DNA of 64,000 nucleotides from Caenorhabditis elegans (Eukaryota > Nematoda > Chromadorea > Rhabditida > Rhabditidae). The translations under genes and the position numbers were made by a program. The notes below the pieces were generated by a model that was given only the letters and a program-made list of their open reading frames with translations, ran no database searches and was not told the DNA's origin. Below, one piece after another: positions 2,099-44,200 of this stretch. The stretch is from NCBI RefSeq assembly GCF_000002985.6, contig NC_003280.10, positions 10,598,501-10,662,500 on the forward strand. The letters run 5' to 3'. The first letter of the stretch is position 1. Every line of letters starts with the position of its first letter.

Positions 2099-3776
2099 TT
2101 AGGAAGTCTCAATTGTCGATGGAGCAGCTGCAAAAATCCTCCGAATCTTTCTCGCTTCAAGAAATTTGTGTCGGAATGTACTTGAAAGGCAGAACAAGAG
2201 CCATGGATTTGAGAGAGCAAATGCATCGGCGGAGACTGTCAGAAGCCAAAGGACTATTTGATAAGCTTTTGCTGATAGGTCAAACACGTGGAATGCTAGC
2301 AAGGACTGAAATGAATTTATTTGGAAATTTTTAATTTTGTCTTTGCAACAGTTCTTTAATTTTTAAGAACAGTTATGCGCTAATATTTTTTGTGTGAAAT
2401 TTGAATGACTTCAAGTGTTTACAGGGAATAATGTTAAAAACCAACCTGAAAGCAAGTCATTGCCAACACAATAACTGTTGATAAACACGCATAAATGAGC
2501 AAATTTGTCTGAACAGTCGATGCGAGTTTTGGCTGGGTCTCAAAGAACTGAAAATGAATTTCAAATATTATTTGACAAGGTGACAGACCTGCATTCGTTT
2601 CTGCTTTCGATGCACAAAACATGCCAGCATATTGCATAGAAGACTGAAGAAACAGAAAAATATGTAGATTATGCAGGTCACTTTTGAGTTGTTCTGAAAA
2701 TTCGGGTATGGTCATGTCGGGGAATCTCTTTTTGGGAAGGGCTTCACTAAAAATTTCTTACCTCTTGGAAAATGGATCAAAATTTTTTAAATGATTTAAA
2801 TTTAAATTTTAGAACTTTAAATAATTTAAAAGTATCTAGAACTAAATTTATAATGTATCTGAGTGGATATAGGTTTACTTTGAACTACGACTGTAGACAT
2901 TTTCGCACGCGTGGAACTTTACCGAATTAGTTATTTTTGAAGTTCTATCCGCTTTAAATCTTTAAAATATCCAAAACTTTACCTCTTGATCTCCTGCATC
3001 AATCAAAAATGGAATGAAACTTCCATTAACATGAATATATGCAGCTGGTTGTGATGCTCTGCTAGCAGTCGGAATGATAGCTAAAATCATTCCACTCAGA
3101 AACAACAACAATGTGATCTTCTTCGTCCAGAACTTGTTGTGTTGAATAGGATATACAATAGCTGACAGCCGATTGATTGAGAGCAATAACTGAGCACACA
3201 TTTCAACCAGAACCGAATATTGAGATATCATAAATCCCATTTTTGCAAGGTGTGGGATATAAGTGACTTCTTCCCATCCGACTATTGGAAATCGAAATGC
3301 AAATAGGGACACCAGTACTTGGATGAAATCGGCCGGAGCTGGAAAATTTGGAAGATTTAAAATTTAATTGCATGGGCGGCTCTCATCCTCCTCTTTGCCC
3401 TTCTAAAAAATTTGATGCTTTTCGAAGAAATTAGAATTTTTGGTAAAATTTTCGAAAATGTCAAAGGGTTCCATAGCGGTTGGACGGTCTATTTTTTAAA
3501 AAATTGGTTGGACGGTCTATTTTTTAAAAAATCTTTAGTCCAATATCAATATCAGTTTTATATGAAAAAAAAGTAAATTCTCTAAACCCCCTCAAATGAA
3601 GGAGGTCCCATATCAGTTGGACGCACTCACTTACCTCGTAATAGAAAGAGTCGATGAAATGCAGTTTTAAACTCCGGATCGCCAGACCACATTATATAGA
3701 TAAATATTAAAAAGTATAATATTAAACTGAAAGAAATATAAGCAGACTGAATTGCCACAACCCATGTGTAGTGCAT
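2099..3776 (-). CDS. serpentine chemoreceptor (7TM GPCR, Srv/Srg superfamily)
   Basis: Five exons on the minus strand, 3776-3635, 3338-2983, 2693-2589, 2547-2446 and 2305-2099, give 303 residues with all phases consistent. Seven hydrophobic segments can be placed: TM1 in exon 1 (SLILYFLIFIYIMW), TM2-TM4 in exon 2, TM5 in exon 3 (IIYIFFCFFSLLCNML), TM6 in exon 4 and TM7 in exon 5. Family-like marks are a SINRLSAIVYP motif at the end of TM3, a basic HRKQKR third cytoplasmic loop and SNPWLLF in TM7. These fit nematode chemoreceptors of the Srg superfamily; class V (Srv) is my best guess. Such receptors usually act in ciliated chemosensory neurons. Much of exon 3 is read in a different frame from the longest local ORF, so simple ORF callers will miss it. 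Confidence 0.8.
3478..3533. repeat. tandem duplication, 2 x 28 bp
   Basis: The unit starting GGTTGGACGGTCTATTTTTT runs 3478-3505 and again 3506-3533 with one terminal difference. It lies in the first intron of the chemoreceptor gene. Confidence 0.9.
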
Positions 3777-5018
3777 CTGAAACTGGAGGGTGATTTGAAA
3801 AATGTGAAGTAGAGGGAGTGTGAACAGAATATAACGGTTTTTTGGTAATTTGGTAAATATTCAGAAAAAAATATAACAGTTATGAATGATATGAAAATGG
3901 TCGGAAATTATAATTCGAATTATTTTGGCAAAACGCCAAAATGTTGAAAACTCGCTATAATAAATAAAAAAGTTTCTAAAAAATTTGTCAAATTTCACCA
4001 TAATATTTGATCCTTCTACCACTAGGTTTAAAAAAAGTCTATTTCCCACCTTTAAACGTCATGTTTTCTTGGAGCCTGGCCGCCCAATATTTACCAAATC
4101 TAATAAAACATTTGGTCTTATGAAAATCAGCATGTTTTTCAAAAGTTAATGCCAAATTCGAAAGAAAAGATATTGAAAAATAGAAAATTACGCTAAGCAT
4201 AATTCTACGTTTCATTTAAAATCTGATGCCTTATTTATAATTGATAACATATAATTCGGAACTTAAATACTATTTTCAAATGAATCGGTGAAAATTTTTT
4301 GACAAAACAACACTTAAATCAAGGAAAACACGCCGTAATAACCAAAAATCTATTATAGGAAACTGTAAAACTGAAAAAAAGGATTCCTTGCTTTCTGGGG
4401 ATTTTGCTACGAAATGCTCCAAATTATCTTTTGATGTGATGTAGTCTATAACAAGAGTACGTGACGAAAATTGATAACCGGAAATGACAGTAATCGGGGT
4501 TCAAAATCAGAAAATTTGCGTCCAGACTCTGAAAGAAGTTTCGGATTTCATCCGGCAAAGATTTTTTGTTTCGATGATCGTTGAAGACGAAAACAAAGAG
4601 CCGAAACTTTTCAATTAAGAGAACGAATCTTTGTCATACGATGGAGGTATCATAAGAATAGCGAAAAGTATCAGCAAGACACACGTTATTTGAATTTTTT
4701 TGGAAGAAAATAATGAGAATTGATGGTGGAGATGACCACGAGCAGCACGAAGGCTATTTGGGGGTGAAATTTATTGGAAGAGAAGAAGCTGGAGAGGATG
4801 GAGATAGAGGTGAAAGGATCAGTTTCAAGTGAAGTAAGAGAGTTTCGAATTTCTAGTTTTTTGTCCTCAACTTTTTATAGGACCAATGAAATCATTGATT
4901 TATCAAGAGGAGGAAAATAGTTTTGGTTGAAATTGTAAAAAAAGCAAAACACAATTTTGCTTAAAGAAATGTTACCCATATGCGAAATTTTGCGACGTAT
5001 ATACGTACGTATGGTCTC

Positions 5019-34569: not shown

Positions 34570-37259
34570 TTATTTATTTCAAACAACTTCAAAAATCCCG
34601 GAATTTTTGAAGCTGTTTATTAATTACTATTGTTCCTGTACATTTTTTTGTTTTGAACCATTGTGGCTTTACATTTGTTCCTTCCTCCTTTTGCTCAATA
34701 AATTGGATGAGATCTCATTTTTTGAAAATATACGTATGAACACTTTTAGATGCACACAAATTGAAATTGGAATACCTAATTGAAATATTCCCGTCAGAAG
34801 AAATAATATTCAAAATATACTGCCCTGGTTTTGGTAAAGTAATTATTATTTGATATTTTCCATCACCGATCAAGTTTTTATAAGAATTATCCTAACATTT
34901 CGCTTGAAGGTAAGTGCTGCTCGTTTTTGAGAATATAAAAAAGTTGTTGACTTCCAGATCGCAATTTATTTGAACATGAAGCTTTGTTTATTTTTTGGAA
35001 TCATATCCTTCACCTCGATTGCTTTTTGTGCTAATAGTCCGAAGCCTCAGCCAGCTCAATGTCCTAAATCTTCTCTGGAAACCAAACCGATGACACCGTC
35101 ACTCAGCGGATCAACTGGCTTTTACGGAGTTGGAAAAGGAATTTCGGATGGTCTACAGAAAGCTCCAGATTCGCAGACGTATCAGGATTTGAATAATCTG
35201 ATTAGCGGCAAAGAATCTTACGCTGACACCATCAAAAGCATGGTTCTGAGCCAAGTCGGCGCAATTATCTTCTGGAGTGTCGGATTCATCTTCATCCTTG
35301 CTACAATAGCACTTTGCATCGTTACTTGCATTTGGCATTTCCGTTGCGCATGCGCTCCCAAGAAATCTGTAGGGAATTCCAATTTTCTTGAAACTTCAAT
35401 TCATATAAATTTCAGGCGGTCCGCTCGGAGATCACTGGAATGGTCTACATTGGTCTATTAGCAACCACTCTTGCGTTCTCAATCGCTGGTGTAATAATTT
35501 TTAATCTCGCTGAAACAGATCTAACGGATTCAATTGATAATGGAGTGACTTATGCCGATAAGATTGTTACAGGTAACTCATGAAAATTAATTTCAGATAT
35601 GGTTCTCTGAAATTCCGCCCCGTGTTGCTTCTTCCTTTTTCAAGGAAGTGCTCAGAAATTTCAGTTTTTGATTTCACTGATTATCTGATTAATTATTCAG
35701 ACATTTTTGATGTTCTTTCCAATGGGAAAAATCAATTAACATGCGAAGTGAAATCTTCAACATCACAAGCGTTGGCTGAAATCCGATCGTTTATTAAGAA
35801 TTACGCAGAAGATGTGATCGATGGAACAACGACACGAGTCGGTTTGACTGCTGTTAACAACGTAAGACGATTGGAATCAATTACATGATTTATTATAATT
35901 ATAGTTTTCAGTTTGATTCTGATGCATTCAAAAGAAGTACTGAAGTCACGTATAACAAAGGAGTGAAGTTGATTGGTGATCTCCAAACTTTACAAATGTC
36001 TCCCAAAACTGGTCCAGACTGTAGAAATACGGCTGCCAACTTATTGGAGAAAGTTATTATAATTCAAAGCGCTTTATCTGTAAGATTTCTGTTGAAGTTT
36101 AATATTCTGCCATTCCCGGATATTGCGTTGGAAGAAAATTACAAAACTTTGGTTTTAAGAACACTAAAAATCCAATGTCCACAACCGGGAATTGAAGATT
36201 TTTCTTTTTTTTTCAATTTCTGCTTAAAATATTATTTTCAGGCTTTATCACTTGCTGCACACTCTTTCAAAAACTCGCGAGAATTGAAAGAAATTAACGA
36301 TTTAATCAAAAAGATTAAAGACGAGGTTGGTATGAATCAGAACTGAATCAGCAAACAGTTTGCCCAATGGGAATATCGAAAAATGTGCCTTTTCAATTTT
36401 TTCAGGTAGAATCTCAATCTAAAGGTGCTGCTGGTGCAATTGATAGTGCTGAAGTATCATTGGATGACACTATCAATTCAATTGTGCATTTCTTGGATAA
36501 ACTTCAACAGGAAGTCAAAGCAGTAAAGAAGATTTCGATTCCTTCAATTCATCAGAAAGTTGTTTCCGTTAGTGCTAACAATTCCAATTATATCCTGGGA
36601 CAATTTCAATTTCAGTACGTTTCCACTGGAATGGTAATTGGCATTCGTGTTGGTGTCACTATCTTAGCTTGCTTGGGGTTAATATGCTGTATCCTTGCTA
36701 TTGTTGTAGTGGTTCTTTCTCTGATGAAACAAGATGGTAGGATAAAGTCAAATAATCCAAAAGTTTATTTCAATATTTAGGCTTGGCAATGAAGCTCTCC
36801 GTCGCCGTTATTATATCTTTCTTCGTTTCAATCGTACTCTGCATTATTCTATTTAAAATTGCAATGACTGTGTTTGCTATGGGATTAGTGGTGTCATCAG
36901 TTTGTGTTCCAGTTTTTGGAGATGACAAGTACACATTATTATATTGGAATTCCGATTCCAGCAATTGGAAATCATTCCTCAATCAACATTGGGTGAGATC
37001 TTTTCAAATCGAGTTTTGACTTACAAACACTCAAAAGTAAAAGGTAGCATTTTTCCAATGAATTCCCGCAGACCTGTTACATGGTAAAATTCCATAATAA
37101 ATTGGATTTTCCATTTTTACAGTCAATTACTCAACTCCTGCAACGACCCAAATATGACTCTACACAAGGCAATTGATGGAAAGTCGATAATATCGGAGGA
37201 AGATGTAAAGAAGCTGATTAACCTGGACAAGTACCGAGGCATAGCTGATAAGCTGATCA

Positions 37260-37272
37260 AGGAGCACCCATC
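37260..37272. repeat. target-site duplication, left copy
   Basis: AGGAGCACCCATC, identical to 39495-39507. It lies in the host exon coding ...LIKEHPS and marks the 5' boundary of the retrotransposon. Confidence 0.9.
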
Positions 37273-38152
37273 TCCTGGTACAGATGGGACCCTCAACGCG
37301 GGCCAGGAGTCCCCCGGAAACGGGGCCAATACCCATCAACACCCAAATTCAAAACCACGTCTGGACCAAACGGAGGAGTGCTCCAAGAGCCTCAAAGTTT
37401 TTTCGGACAGAGCGGCGCTAAGAGGGAGCGCGTCGCTATGTGAAACACCATCCCTCCCACACACCACCTTCCTCAAGAGGAAGCTTCTCGTCAGATCTGG
37501 CGACGTCGAAAGCAACCCAGGACCCACTGTTAAATGGCCCTGCTCCATCTGCAACAAGAACGCCGACGGGAAAAAGGAAACCAGTATCAAATGTATGGCG
37601 AGCCTGTGCAGAGTCTGGACCCATGCGAGATGCGCCAACATCGGGAAAAACCCCTCCAGCCACCATGGCTTCTTCTGCGCCGGCTGCTCTATTTCTGGAT
37701 CAACCACCACCACAAGACCTTTCAGGCCTCCAGGACCCGCCACTAACACCACTGCCTCTTCCACCCTTGCTCTGCCCCCACCCACTAAGCCAACTACGCC
37801 CAGCGAGCTCAGGATTATGCAATGGAACGTTAATGGGTTAAAAGCAAGAATAAAAGATCTCTACTCGCTCATCGCTAAATACCGTCCACACATCATCTGC
37901 CTCCAAGAGCTAAAAATCGACGTTAAGGATTCCTCCATCAACTTCCCAGAGTACAGAGCTATTCTGATTCCCAGAAACTCAAAAGGTGGAGGAGTCGGCA
38001 TACTTGTGAAAGACTGCCTAAATTTTTCCATGACGGAACACACAATGGAACAATCATTCGAATCAGTCACGGTTGCAATTGACGGAAGTATCAAAGTTAC
38101 GCACTCTCTTCAAACAGCTCGCGGAGACGGATGCAGAACCCAGAATCATTAA
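37273..38152 (+). CDS. LINE ORF fragment: 2A, PHD-like finger, endonuclease N-part
   Basis: The open frame is continuous with the host exon from before 37154, so the retrotransposon reading frame is fused in phase to prominin copy 2. It runs through a basic region (FLKRKLLVRSGDVESNPGP), where a 2A motif would cause ribosomal skipping between Gly and Pro. Then come a finger with Cys pairs (CSIC, CMASLC, a WTHARC core, CAGC), a Thr/Pro linker, and APE endonuclease with catalytic-type N (WNVNG) and E (LQELK). After GSIKVT the frame enters the deletion junction and stops at 38150-38152. There is no in-frame ATG before the 2A motif in the element, so it may be 5'-truncated or start in a host context. 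Confidence 0.75.
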
Positions 38153-39455
38153 ATGGATCGTCAACTTCATCAACAAACGTAAAATCAAGACTTTCTTTGA
38201 TGACTGCTGTTCAGGATGGAAGACCACGAAAGGAGTCCCCCAAGGCGGAGTTCTTTGCCCGTCGCTCTTCAACTTCTACACAAAGAATGTCCCCACTGAT
38301 CCAACTGTCTTGCTCGTGGCATACGCAGACGACACCAGTATCCTAGCACAGGATGCCAACCTATTCAGTGCAGCCAAGAAGGCTCAAGATCATCTGGACA
38401 AACTGGCTTCCTTCTTCAAAGAAAGGAGACTCTCCATATCTGCTGCGAAATCCACGTGCACCGTCTTCTCAGCTTTCTCAGGAGACTTCAAATTTGATCC
38501 TCTGCTTACCTGGGAGGGAATCCAAATTCCTACCACAAACGAGTGCCGTCTCTTAGGGCTTCACCTTGACTCCATGCTCTGCATGCGCGAACACCAAGCC
38601 CAAATCAAGGAGAGACTCCAGAGCCAGCTGAATCAGATGAAAGGACTCGCCGGGACCACCTGGGGCAGCAACAAGGAACTCATGCTTACCACGTTCAAAG
38701 CCATCACCAAACCGGGCGCCACCTACGCCTGCCAAAGTTGGTCTCAACTTGTAAAGCCCACGAGGATGGACAGCCTTGACTCATCGTACAGGGCAATCTT
38801 GCGCGTCTGCTGCGGCCTCACAAAAGACACCCCTGGATACCACATCCACGACGAGGCGGGCATCCTTCCCTTATCCCACGAAATTAAGCTCATGAACCAG
38901 CAATATGCGATATCCATGATAAAATCTGCGGGACATCCATCAAACGGTCTAACAGGCCGCAGAAAGTTGGCACGTAACACGACAAGAAGTAGCAAGCCGC
39001 CCAGGGAACCCCCGCTGGATTTCCCTGACAAGACACTAGACGACTGGAAGAATCACCCTGGCTCCACAAAAAGCCTGCAGAAACTAAACCACACAAAATT
39101 CGTTGCTCACTTCCTGGCGAACCGACCGACGAACAAAATACTAGGAACTGCTGCACCAAAAATCTGCAAATCGGAGGAAGAGCTCCCTCGTGAAACCCGG
39201 ACTGAGCTTGCCAGACTGCGCTGTGGCCACTCAAGATTATGTGGTTCTTACGTTGCCAGAATTGAAAACAGAAGCATTTCCCCTTGCAGGAAATGTGGAA
39301 GTGTGGAGGGTGGCGTGAATCACCTTTTGACCTGCATCTCCTCGGTCCCTCTGCTCCCAAAGGACCTGTGGGAGAAGCCGGTGGAAGTGGCCGAGGCCCT
39401 GGGCCTCTCCACGACCCCCTTCGACCCCGGAGGAAACGGAACCACCCCTCCATAA
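38086..39455 (+). CDS. LINE reverse transcriptase fragment
   Basis: About 455 open codons without interruption. The RT palm is represented by KTFFDDCCSGWKTTKGVPQG, then GGVLCPSLF and the catalytic VAYADDTSI, followed by thumb-like sequence and a C-terminal region with LRCGHSRLCGSYVARI and the knuckle CRKCGSVEGGVNHLLTC. RT blocks upstream of the first listed motif are deleted, so it should be inactive. That the remaining frame is fully open indicates a young copy or one mobilised in trans in this deleted form. Confidence 0.85.
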
Positions 39456-39494
39456 AACACGGACCAAGGATTTTTGAATTTGCACAACAACAAC

Positions 39495-39507
39495 AGGAGC
39501 ACCCATC
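39495..39507. repeat. target-site duplication, right copy
   Basis: AGGAGCACCCATC, identical to 37260-37272. The host exon resumes here (...CCTAATTTTGCTAAATTC) and continues to its donor at 39538. Confidence 0.9.
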
Positions 39508-41282
39508 GCCTAATTTTGCTAAATTCAATACTTATGAGGTATTTTAAATAATGATTTACTTTAAAACGAAATTCCTACACTATCAAAAACTTTTTAGTTT
39601 TTTAGATTGCGAAGAAACTTTTGAATGATAACGCTGAACAAGCCAAATCTGCGAATCTGGCTATCTGTGACAACAATAATTTAGATCAAACGTTTATTGC
39701 ATACTCGGAATCTCTTTCCATGTCCCACTTACTTTCCCAGCAATTTGTCAAAAAATTAGAGACTCTGGCAGAAAATGCTCCGAAAACGGTGGGTACAAAT
39801 GCGTTTCAACTTTATGAGCACTTGTGTTTCAGCCATCGATTGCAAAAGATCTGAATAAAACTTATTTCACTAAAACGGAAGCAATTTTGAAACAGGCTGT
39901 TACCAAGCTTTTTGTGGGTTGATGATTTCATTTATGCAATTTATTTAATCAGTAAATAATTTTCAGAAAGCCCTGCAAGATGATATTTTCAAGTGTCGCC
40001 CGTTAGTAGATGTCTACAATAATGCAGGGATTTCAGTTTGCGAGCAATTTGGATTACCAGTTCATGGAATGTGGGCATCGGTTGGCTTGGGTGGTGTTGT
40101 GCTATTCTTCCAAATAATTTTATTGCTTCTTACTTTTCGTTGGTTGAGAACTCATAGCAAGAATACTGTTGGCAAGAATGGAAAAAGTGATAAGGTTCGT
40201 TTTTTTTCAAATTTTGGCAATTACCGGAAGCTGTTTCAATTGTAACACTAAATACCATAGATTATTGTATATTTTCTTATGTTGATAGCGATAGTCTACA
40301 TAGCTTGACTGCTCAATAATCTTGCACTCCATATTGTTTATTGGTTGAACCCGAATACAACCAAAATACGAGAAATCAAATCTTTAACACCATGAAGCTA
40401 AATTATTGAATAGTTCCTGAATCTGTTTTGAAACCTTAACTTTAGGTTTGCCAGAACCGCGCCCGTCAGTTAAAATATTTCTGAAAATTATAAAGCAAAA
40501 CACTAATTCTTTACAGACGGGGACATCAGGCTCAATGGAAAAGGCTGGCTCGAAAGAAAAAGACAAAAAGAAAAAGAAGAAAAAAGATAAGGCAAATCCG
40601 ACTGACAAGTGATTGCCACTCCCGAATTCAAAATATTATAGCTATTATTTCAGAGGATCCGTCGAAAAAACTAAATCGAAAGAATCCGATGGAGATCCTA
40701 ATAAAGATGTTACGCCAGATAAGATTCCCGGAAACAATAAAAAAGGGAGCACACTCGACATCGAGCCGATCTGGTGAATTTTAATGTCCAGTATGAATAA
40801 ACGATGCTTTTTTTTTGAAATTAATTTTAATAAGATTTGAAAAATAATTAACGTGATAAACAGAAATCATGAAATGTGTGATTTTTTTGTTCCCGTGAGA
40901 AAAAAAATCACATGTAAGAATTCAACAGTTTTCAATCATTAATCGATCTTATTCGACTTCGAACAAGTTTCCTTATCATTATCCCAGCATTTTCATCAGA
41001 AGGTAAGTGGTTGTTGCAGATGGTTTTCAGATACGGGTTTAGCGCCGTACTATCTACACACAGTAATGCTTTGCTGCCTTTAAATTAAGAATACTGTATT
41101 ACTACAAAGCACTGTAAACTGCAAGCTATGGCTTATGAATTGGATTCCCGAATTATAAAAGGACACTAAATAGGTTGAAACCCGAACCATCTGAAAGGCA
41201 GAGCACAAATAAATCAGTCAAAAAAACGTACAGCTTCAAGTCGACAAATCTCATGAAATTCCAGATCGCGATTGATTGGAAA

Positions 41283-44200
41283 ATGAAACTTCGTTTGTTT
41301 GTTGGCTTCATAGCCCTGATCTCGATTGCTTTTTGTGCTAAAAGTCCGAAGCCTCAAGCATCAGGACCAGCACCAGCTCAATGTCCAAAGTCTTCTGTGG
41401 AAGTTAAACCGATGAAACCTGAACTAACAGGATCTGTCGGATTTTATGGAACTGGCAAAGGAATTTCAGATAGTCTGCAGAAAACTCCAGATTCGAAGTC
41501 TTATGAGGTAAGGGGGGGCTTTCTTGTGCCACTATCATCATAATGTTATTTCAGGATTTGAATAACCTAATTAGTGGAAAAGAATCCTACGGGGAAACCC
41601 TTAAAAGTATGATTCTGAGCCAAGTCACTGCAATCGTCTTCTGGAGTGTTGGAATCGTTTTGATCATTATTGCAGCTGCACTTTGCATCGTAACTTGCAT
41701 TTGGCAGTGTTGTTCTACGTGTGCTCCCAGAGAATCTGTAAGGACTTCAAATTTACTTGCATCTTCAATTCATAATAATTCTAGGCGGTCCGCTCTGAAT
41801 ACACTGGAATGGTATACCTTGCTCTGTTGGCTACCACTCTTGCGTTCACCCTAGCAGGTGTTATAATTTTCAATCTCGCGGAGACTGACTTTGTCGATAC
41901 TGTTGATAATGGAGTGAAGTACGCCAATCAGCTCACCTCAGGTAACATACATTCAAAAGACCTCGTGGAGCTTGAAAATCAGTAGATTCTTTCTGACAGA
42001 TCATTTAAACTTGTATCACATTCCACGTTAATTTTTCAATTATTCAGACATGTCGAATGTTTTTTCGAATGGAAAAAATCAGTTGACATGCGAAGTGAAA
42101 TCTTCAACATCACAAGCATTCGCTGAAATCCGATCGTTTATAAGGAACTATGAAAGAGATGTGACTGATAAAGCTGCGACACAAGTTGGATTAACTGCTG
42201 TCAACAAGGTTAGACGATTCGAGTCAGCTATATGATTTTTCATTATAATACTTTTCAGTTCGATGTTGATGCATTCGTAAAGAGTACTAGTGATACCGTT
42301 GAAAAGGGAGAGAAGTTGAACGCTGCACTTGCTAATATTAATAATCCTTCTTCGGAATGTAAAACGAGTGCCAACGAGTTGAAAGCTAGAGTTTCAGCAA
42401 TGGGTATAGCCTTAAAAGTGAGAGTTTCCTTCGATTTTGGGGAATTTTGATCAAGACTATTGAAATGCTTTCGAGTATATCAACAAACATTCAAAGATTT
42501 CTGGAATTTATATCAGCAAACACTACCTTCCGCAGTGCTACATTTTCTGAACAGTTCCATCACTGAATACAGCTGCTATGAAAGACTTTTTCCTTATTTT
42601 TTAAACGGAATTGTTTCCAATCTAGTTTCACCATTTCAACTTCAGGGTCTATCAACCGCTGCAGACACAGTGATGGGGTCGAGCGAATTGGACAGTGTTA
42701 ACAAAATGGTCGATGTGATTAAAGCTGAGGTTTGTAGTAATTTTGTGATTCAAGAACTAAGTTATTTTTAATTTAAGATTAAATCTCAATCTAGAGGTGC
42801 TGGTAGTGTCATTGATAGTGCTCAGAAATCAATCGACGACACTACGAATTCAATTGTAGAATTTCTGGATCAGGTTCAACACCAAGTTGAAGAAATAAAG
42901 AAGTCAATTCCTAAATATCACGAGCAAATTGCTGGCGTGAGTGAAGAAACGAATAAATTTTTAAACAGAAAATTGTATAATTTCAGTACAATTCCTTCAG
43001 TACGGTGCTTGGAATTCGTCTTGGTATCATTATTCCGGCCGCCATGGGATGTATCTATTGCATCGTTGCAATTGTCGCTGTGATTCTTTCGTTGATAAAA
43101 CAGGACGGTAAGATTGATGGACACCAGTAAAAAGGATCAGTTTTAATATTTAGGTGTGGCACTGAAGCTCTCTAGATTTGTCATCGATGGCTTTTTCTCC
43201 TCAATCACTGGCTCCATTACACTTCTAGGATTTGCAATGTTTGCATTTGCATTGGGATTAGTGGTGTCATCGATATGTGTTCCAGTTTTTGAAGATGATA
43301 ACTACACTTTGTTCCGTCAAATGAATGTTCCGATGCCTGCAGCTGACAATAAGACTAAAACATCCATCAACATTGAGTGAGAAATTTAAATATACAGTTT
43401 TGGCAGTTGATTTTTTGTCCAAGTCACTGAAAAAGTGGGTTGATACCAATAATTTTTTCAAATTTCTAAAAGAGTGGAAAAGATCCTTTTTCCAGTCAGT
43501 TACTTGAGTCTTGCAACAATCCAAGCATGACCTTGTACAAAGCGATTGATGGAAAAAAGTTGATATCTGAGGAGGCTATGAACAAACAGATTAACCTGAA
43601 TAAGTACCGAGACATGGCTGATAAGAAGATCAGTGAGCAACCAAAATCGGATTTTAAGCTTCCTCAAGCAACGAATTATAAGGTATTTTCATTCATAAAT
43701 TACACATTCATCATGATGGGGTAGTTTCCAATTAGAAATAAAAATTACAGAACCATATGAAAGCTGTGAACGATAACGCTAAAAAAGCACAATCAGCGGA
43801 TTTGTCAAAGTGTAAAGACGCTGATTTGAATAAACAGTTCAAGGAATATGCTGCTTCTCTCAAAAAATCTCAAGCACTTTCCAAGCAGTTTATAGACAAC
43901 TTGGCAAAACTGGCAGAAAACGCACCAAAGACGGTGTGTTTAGGTTTTTTCTAGATTTTCGGAAACTTTTATGTTTCAGTCTACAATTGTAAAGGATCTC
44001 AACAAGAATTATTTCACTAAAAAGGAAGCGGTTTTGAAACAGGCAGTGACCAAGCTTTTGGTAGGTTTTTCTTGACAGTTGTCTTAATCAGTAATTCATT
44101 TTCAGAAAGCTCTGCAAGATGATATTTTCAAGTGCCGTCCGTTAGTAGATATCTACAATAATGCAGGTGTGCTGGTTTGTGAGCAAGTTGGATTGCCAAT

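Follow-up and report, generated by a model that had tools for sequence, protein, structure and literature searches.

In the window (the whole 64,000-nucleotide stretch of Caenorhabditis elegans DNA that was analyzed, G000:C2:10598501-10662500), an internally deleted, PHD-bearing LINE copy of the APE type has a 5' region whose best reading, which we hold with somewhat better than even confidence, is ribozyme release, a −1 frameshift and a 2A skip leading to a finger–endonuclease–reverse transcriptase (RT) protein. The anatomy of this region, its conservation and covariation, and the coincidence of its start with insertion junctions are observed in the DNA, and from these we infer every activity and the co-transcription with the host. 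The original prediction for this DNA had dealt with the 2A-type motif and the finger; the ribozyme, the T6 run with its hairpin and the internal deletion were absent from it. The copies compared are W (the window copy) and C3, C4, C1, C5 and C6 (chromosomes III, IV, I, V and X, respectively). The boundaries and enzyme domains of W are as follows:

37260..37272, + strand: 5' target-site duplication AGGAGCACCCATC, in a host coding exon, with an identical 13-mer at 39495-39507
37273..39494, + strand: whole inserted element W, 2222 bp, an internally deleted non-LTR element with duplications on both sides
37541..37687, + strand: PHD-like C4HC3 finger (Pfam PHD; W 19.7 bits, E=9e-4)
37817..38077, + strand: AP-type endonuclease, N-terminal part, the rest deleted (Pfam Exo_endo_phos 2.8e-10, profile 1-100 of 225)
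38103..38567, + strand: RT domain, C-terminal part, in another frame (Pfam RVT_1 5.2e-14, profile 86-205 of 205)
39495..39507, + strand: 3' target-site duplication, after the CAACAACAAC 3' end

Because the AGGAGCACCCATC 13-mer recurs at 39495-39507, W was delimited as 37273-39494; its 5' end could also be placed at 37272, owing to a 1-nt microhomology. C3, which is nearly identical to W, has the same first base and likewise a (CAA)n 3' end with a couple of bases different, and its target-site duplication GGGACTACCCCC (recognized by eye) and its internal deletion both differ from those of W. W and C3 are short internally deleted elements (SIDEs) as PMC4035085 uses the term, in which the ends and target-site duplications are kept and the interior of the ORF is deleted. 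W keeps its 5' features and 3' end; the middle of the enzyme is gone, so W is non-autonomous, and the deletion has left the endonuclease and RT parts in different frames.

When the flanks of W are joined, they form an open exon that aligns to a paralogue at about 43495-43682, and the insertion of W has broken a host coding exon. Tandem paralogous host genes lie at window positions 34931-37272 and 41139-44100, one of them being interrupted by W, and no Pfam domain above cut-off was found for this host gene family in the six exon frames scanned. The stop-to-stop frame from 37088 consists of host sequence up to 37272 and of element sequence from 37273, and the frame from 37148 accordingly opens with 41-42 host-derived residues. 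The expectation that the 2A would split off an N-terminal peptide of the element did not hold for W as it had been put, because the first part of the frame is host exon and no in-frame AUG of the element precedes the 2A; the same absence of an in-frame AUG between the 5' end and the 2A was found in C3 and C1. Domestication of the 354-aa frame by the host gene was also considered and rejected as the main reading, as the exact target-site duplication divides the host part (to 37272) from the element, and the host paralogue continues as an ordinary exon. A related reading is that the host exon is translated into the element and that the 2A frees the host protein, for which it speaks that the frame is open from the host exon through the 2A. 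We regard this as the least probable of the readings weighed here, given that it concerns a single copy (in C3 the open frame reaches only 23 nt upstream of the element), that in-frame joining has a 1-in-3 chance of arising, and that the host message would be severed at 37272 if the ribozyme works.

The enzyme-coding part allies the element, by its architecture, with known LINEs. The finger follows the 2A core with the pattern WPC-x2-C...C-x4-C...WTH-x2-C...FFC-x2-C. Its Pfam PHD score in W (19.7 bits) falls below the curated cut-off of 24 bits; among the copies scanned (W, C4, C1, C5 and C6), C4 reaches 24.7 bits, above the cut-off, C1 21.0 and C5 20.7 bits, and C6, the X copy, gave no PHD match. 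A phmmer search of the PDB matched the finger best to SHPRH (chain 2m85_A, E 0.0015), and the RT matched LINE-1, R2 and other RT chains among solved structures. C4 (L047:3310-6972; G000:C4:4767809-4771471) is a full-length relative with an uninterrupted 1221-aa open frame holding the finger, endonuclease and RT (Pfam RVT_1 1.2e-32, Exo_endo_phos 4.4e-13, PHD above cut-off), and no RNase H model of Pfam matched it at E<=1. Judged by C4, the element is of an APE-type LINE group with PHD, APE and RT in one frame, CR1/L2-like, the clade name being given by architecture. The 3' part of C4 is ~97.7% identical to a stretch of chromosome II (L053), which suggests fairly recent activity.

Several further arrangements were observed. 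Upstream of the 2A region of C4, a ~30-bp stretch ending in CCATCAACATCGA occurs twice, 56 bp apart (L047 about 3410-3440 and 3466-3494). On the minus strand of L055 (G000:C6:2166000-2174500), a pair of elements from the group is arranged head-to-tail, with a CAACAACAACA 3' end directly before the C6 5' region. Near the RT remnant of C5, inverted 427-bp copies that are 99.5% identical lie at minus-strand coordinates 4556-4982 and 5812-6238 of L049. A near-perfect palindromic hairpin at L004:2607-2684 has a sub-threshold Rfam match to mir-5014 (36.5 bits vs a gathering threshold of 101). No relatives of the element were found in viral contigs.

The 2A region of W comprises two parts:

37433..37498, + strand: conserved upstream context of the 2A, SL-x4-FLKRKLLVRS, from the five-lineage alignment
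37499..37525, + strand: 2A / StopGo core GDVESNPG^P, coding for GDVESNPGP

GDVESNPGP had been read as a 2A-type motif in a nematode APE-type non-LTR element, and this was borne out by a genome-wide search. The pattern D-[V/I/M]-E-x-NPGP, written as degenerate DNA, had 4 matches in the 100,286,401-bp genome (7 contigs, both strands), all four in members of the same retrotransposon group, and the reversed-pattern control had 0; the motif is thus not a chance occurrence. The basic stretch said to precede the motif and the finger and endonuclease said to follow it are likewise present (FLKRKLLVRS before it, and the C4HC3 finger and Exo_endo_phos after it). Protein search and DNA pattern together gave at least six copies with the 2A–finger region, in five lineages. 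Their cores are GDVESNPGP in W and C3, GDVETNPGP in C4, GDIEVNPGP in C6, GDVEQNSGP in C1 and GDVVMNPGP in C5, and the intact ones use different synonymous codons. Conservation of the motif in related copies therefore held for the most part: C4, with its long open frame, and C6 keep the core, 4/6 copies and 3/5 lineages have it intact, and the five aligned lineages all show the same S-L-x4-F-L upstream of it. The exceptions are C1 (NSGP) and C5 (DVVMNPGP), both of which are decayed copies. S-L-x4-F-L is followed by basic or leucine-rich residues in four lineages, less so in C4. The available text of a study of 2A sequences gives an expanded core, (D/G/C/N)(V/I)ExNPGP, and permissive upstream hexapeptides including an L-rich class ending in (A/S/C)G (PMC12846837). 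LLVRSG, which precedes DVESNPGP in W, fits this L-rich class as given there.

From its sequence, the 2A would release a leader, with the enzyme chain made separately and starting with proline. We consider it improbable that the 2A is instead an unused relic, with the enzyme chain initiated at a Met downstream of it. The first in-frame Met of W does lie after the 2A, inside the finger, and the core is broken in two of the six copies, as the relic reading would allow; a start within the finger would, however, remove its first Cys residues, and five lineages show protein-level conservation of the stretch before the 2A, strongest in the 2A frame (mean score 28.4 vs 15.8 and 21.3 in the other frames).

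The 5' end of W has the following features of an HDV-like ribozyme:

37273..37337, + strand: HDV-like ribozyme, from descriptor scan, covariance model and pair counts
37273-37278/37303-37308, plus 37272/37309, + strand: P1
37283-37288/37332-37337, + strand: P2
37290-37292/37300-37302, + strand: P3, with L3 at 37293-37299
37312-37316/37321-37325, + strand: P4, with J4/2 CCAATA at 37326-37331

The first ~65 nt of W fit the nested double pseudoknot P1-P2-P3-P4 of HDV-like ribozymes. On both strands of the window, the descriptor scan returned 8 loci, of which the ribozyme of W scored −41.4 and the next, an AT-rich one, −21.4. At the six element loci, the same descriptor matched the 5' ends of W, C3 and C1, with two AT-rich matches in the flank of C3 and none at the C4, C5 and C6 copies. 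For the 200-nt segments of W and of C1 alike, one of 4000 dinucleotide shuffles had any descriptor match, and none was as stable. A covariance model built from W and C3 alone found the divergent C1 at its duplication junction (E 2.9e-6 in 170,214 bases, a rough E-value); its matches other than the three copies were two weak ones (E 0.53 and 5.8), which we judged to be chance or a fragment. With P2 counted as a pseudoknot, 63/63 cells of P1-P4 are paired and 8/21 pairs are doubly changed, a count that covers three sequences from two lineages, two of the sequences being near-identical. None of 500 shuffles reached the cells paired or the double changes, slid versions had no double changes, and the further pair types were reached by 23/500 shuffles. 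As MAFFT misaligned the 5' half of the two lineages, this count was made on the covariance-model alignment, which leans to the modelled P1, P3 and P4 and not to P2. The pattern of the P2-P3-L3 core occurred at 5 places, comprising the three known copies and two chance-like ones, and its reversed control at 3. HDV-like ribozymes have their catalytic C in J4/2, followed by N-purine-A. The J4/2 sequences CCAATA of W (at 37326) and CCAAATA of C1 match this arrangement, and P1.1 has at best one pair (A-U in W, U-A in C1, by eye). The Rfam HDV family had no match in W even at E<=10, nor was there any HDV-type match at E<=1 in loci L001-L007, and the pseudoknot-free fold of the region is not unusually stable (z −0.5).

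The position of the ribozyme relative to the insertion junctions is consistent with its proposed role. In C1, the target-site duplication AAGATTTATTATG directly abuts ribozyme nucleotide 1, and this nucleotide is the first base of the element in all three copies with recognized duplications (W, C3 and C1; two lineages), as expected if the RNA was cut there before reverse transcription. Of the six copies, W, C3, C1 and C4 were examined for duplications; three of them have recognized ones, and the search in C4 found none. The analysis did not draw on two additional 5'-region fragments of 59-61 bp (84-88% identity).

Between the ribozyme and the 2A lie the elements of a putative frameshift cassette:

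37284..37421, + strand: upstream ORF of 45 codons, starting at the only AUG between the element 5' end and the T6, inside ribozyme P2
37361..37363, + strand: CTG, candidate non-AUG start, 36 nt before the GTT codon at the T6, in the main frame
37397..37403, + strand: putative −1 slip site G TTT TTT, with the T6 run at 37398-37403; T6 in W, C3, C4, C1 and C6
37411..37437, + strand: hairpin 7 nt downstream of the T6, stem 37411-37418/37430-37437, with AGAGGGA in the loop

A −1 frameshift signal consists of a slippery XXXYYYZ and a structured stimulator 5-9 nt downstream. The heptamer found here, GTTTTTT or ATTTTTT, is a near-fit to XXXYYYZ and not a classic one. (G/A)TTTTTTC is present in 5/6 copies and 4/5 lineages, with GTTTTGG in C5, and the T6 is kept even though GTT (0.18-0.20) and TTT (0.11-0.20) are minority codons in these frames. 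The T6 is unique within the W and C1 elements, and the open frame of C4 has a second one, upstream. The hairpin starts 5-7 nt after the T6, and in the five lineages 39/44 of its cells are paired and 7/9 pairs are doubly changed. Out of 500 shuffles, 0 reached its covariation score or cells paired, 10 reached the double-changed pairs and 287 the further pair types; slid versions had at most 53% of cells paired and at most 4 doubly changed pairs. In the five-lineage mean, the folding minimum within the scanned 5' region falls on the hairpin, which in each lineage folds only modestly better than shuffles (z −0.9 to −2.7; −1.2 to −3.4 in wider windows). Judging from the sequence, the T6 and the hairpin with its gap of 5-7 nt probably have the layout of a −1 frameshift signal. 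It is highly improbable, in our view, that the structures at the 5' end arose by chance from the folding of GC-rich DNA, leaving an ordinary LINE with a PHD finger and a 2A motif; the modest single-strand folding z-scores and the lack of an Rfam match would suit such folds, but not the covariation in both ribozyme and hairpin, the shuffle results and the coincidence with three insertion junctions.

The copies differ in how well their reading frames upstream of the T6 suit a shift. W, C3 and C1 have their sole AUG before the T6 at nt 12, and C6, whose 5' end is approximate, has it at about nt 10; its distance from the T6 is 114 nt in W, 135 nt in C1 and 114 nt in C6. In all four copies this AUG sets the frame in which the run is read as TTT TTT, and a −1 shift there would lead into the 2A frame. 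A 0-frame AUG ORF that stops soon, together with a −1 ORF lacking an AUG, fits W and C1, and near-cognate codons exist in the −1 frame. The AUG frame of C6 fits but runs on after the T6, and C3 has a stop in its upstream frame. In C4 there is an AUG in the main frame, and the upstream frame offers none that is usable; C5 has lost the T6, and its AUG, close to nt 10, opens the main frame and soon meets a stop.

These frames also bear on another account, which we consider rather unlikely, in which the element and its ribozyme are as described and there is no frameshift. Translation would begin in the main frame at a non-AUG codon (e.g., CUG 37361) or by ribozyme-assisted internal entry, and the hairpin would serve initiation or RNP recognition. 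The main frame is indeed open from the 5' end to the 2A in W, C3 and C1, and near-cognate codons stand at a common place before the T6 codon (CUG at 36 nt in W and C3 and at 39 nt in C1, GUG at 36 nt in C6), which would make a frameshift unneeded; Ruminski (2011) also reportedly connected HDV-like ribozymes with the initiation of translation in non-LTR elements. An IRES has been suggested for L1Tc/R2 in the available text of PMC8256844. However, C4 and C5 have no near-cognate start at that place before the T6, and this account leaves unexplained why a hairpin with the geometry of a −1 stimulator follows a conserved T6. It also has against it that three lineages carry the sole AUG before the T6 in the frame that matches, and that upstream of the T6, where all three frames are largely open, the main frame has the lowest protein conservation (mean z 0.2-0.3, compared with 1.2 for the upstream frame and 1.1 for the third). 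Neither frame openness nor frame conservation discriminated decisively which of the upstream frames is coding.

Returning to the frameshift reading, we propose a plausible model for the expression of this element. The element RNA would be made within the host transcript, and the ribozyme would cut it at the first base of the element. Translation may then begin at AUG 37284, the sole AUG before the T6, and the short upstream frame would be read as far as the T6 slip run backed by the hairpin. At 37397-37403, where conservation and covariation support the signal, a fraction of ribosomes would shift −1 into the main frame. The conserved 2A would then free the leader, and the finger–endonuclease–RT would be made as a separate chain from proline. 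As AUG 37284 is paired in P2, ribozyme folding and initiation would exclude each other. A broader proposal, to which we give a little less than an even chance and which we advance tentatively, is that the first ~250 nt pack three devices, an HDV-like ribozyme with the only upstream AUG in P2, a −1 signal and a 2A, into one cassette that would set RNA release, translation start, enzyme dosage and N-terminus, with folding set against translation by the AUG pairing, and that is kept even in internally deleted copies.

If these proposals are true, the genome of C. elegans, the most thoroughly studied among nematodes, holds a structurally intact HDV-like ribozyme that is directly assayable, and a LINE group with both 2A and ribozyme exists far from the trypanosomes, so that the two devices would be recurrently paired. 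Frameshifting and 2A together would account for enzyme production by single-ORF PHD LINEs that lack an AUG of their own, and would represent an unusual case of frameshifting that leads straight into ribosome skipping. The ribozyme would also provide a mechanism by which an exon-inserted LINE cuts the host message.

Among open-licence PMC papers, we found no report of an HDV-like ribozyme in C. elegans, of a 2A in C. elegans elements, or of ribozyme, frameshift and 2A together. The closest working analogue is L1Tc of Trypanosoma cruzi (ingi clade), which has the 5' Pr77/L1TcRz HDV-like ribozyme plus a 2A. The 2A of L1Tc is reportedly in frame with its proteins, as Heras is said to have described in 2006. 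According to the available text of PMC4035085, the HDV-like ribozyme of L1Tc is 5'-terminal and cuts at the first base, and L1Tc has internally deleted non-autonomous partners. The worm element is unlike L1Tc in its nematode host, its PHD finger, its T6–hairpin and its upstream AUG frame, and in that Pfam found no RNase H in C4. In 2013, Odon reportedly described 2A in APE-type elements of multicellular organisms, from the Rex1, Crack, L2, L2A, CR1 and Ingi clades. A 2A in a CR1/L2-like element is thus not new in kind; compared with those elements, the worm element adds the ribozyme and the putative frameshift cassette. The worm group shares with L2 subgroup 4 and CR1 subgroup 6 an N-terminal PHD encoded in one long frame together with APE and RT; for these subgroups, the available text of the source describes no 2A or ribozyme and mentions no nematodes or elegans (PMC4120745).

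HDV-like ribozymes at or near the element 5' end are given for R2, R4 (Ascaris), Dong, Baggins and L1Tc in the available text of PMC3774820, and that of PMC8256844 lists others from C. japonica and P. pacificus, so that nematode HDV-like ribozymes do exist; C. elegans is not named in these portions of the two sources, and W, compared with these nematode and R2-type ribozymes, matches no Rfam model. SIDEs such as NARTc/RIME and the R2 SIDEs keep the 5' ribozyme and the 3' end and have the middle of the ORF deleted, according to the available text of PMC4035085 and PMC3774820. W resembles them in its kept ends, and unlike them it retains parts of the endonuclease and RT. The parts of the 5' cassette are therefore of known kinds, and their combination looks new.
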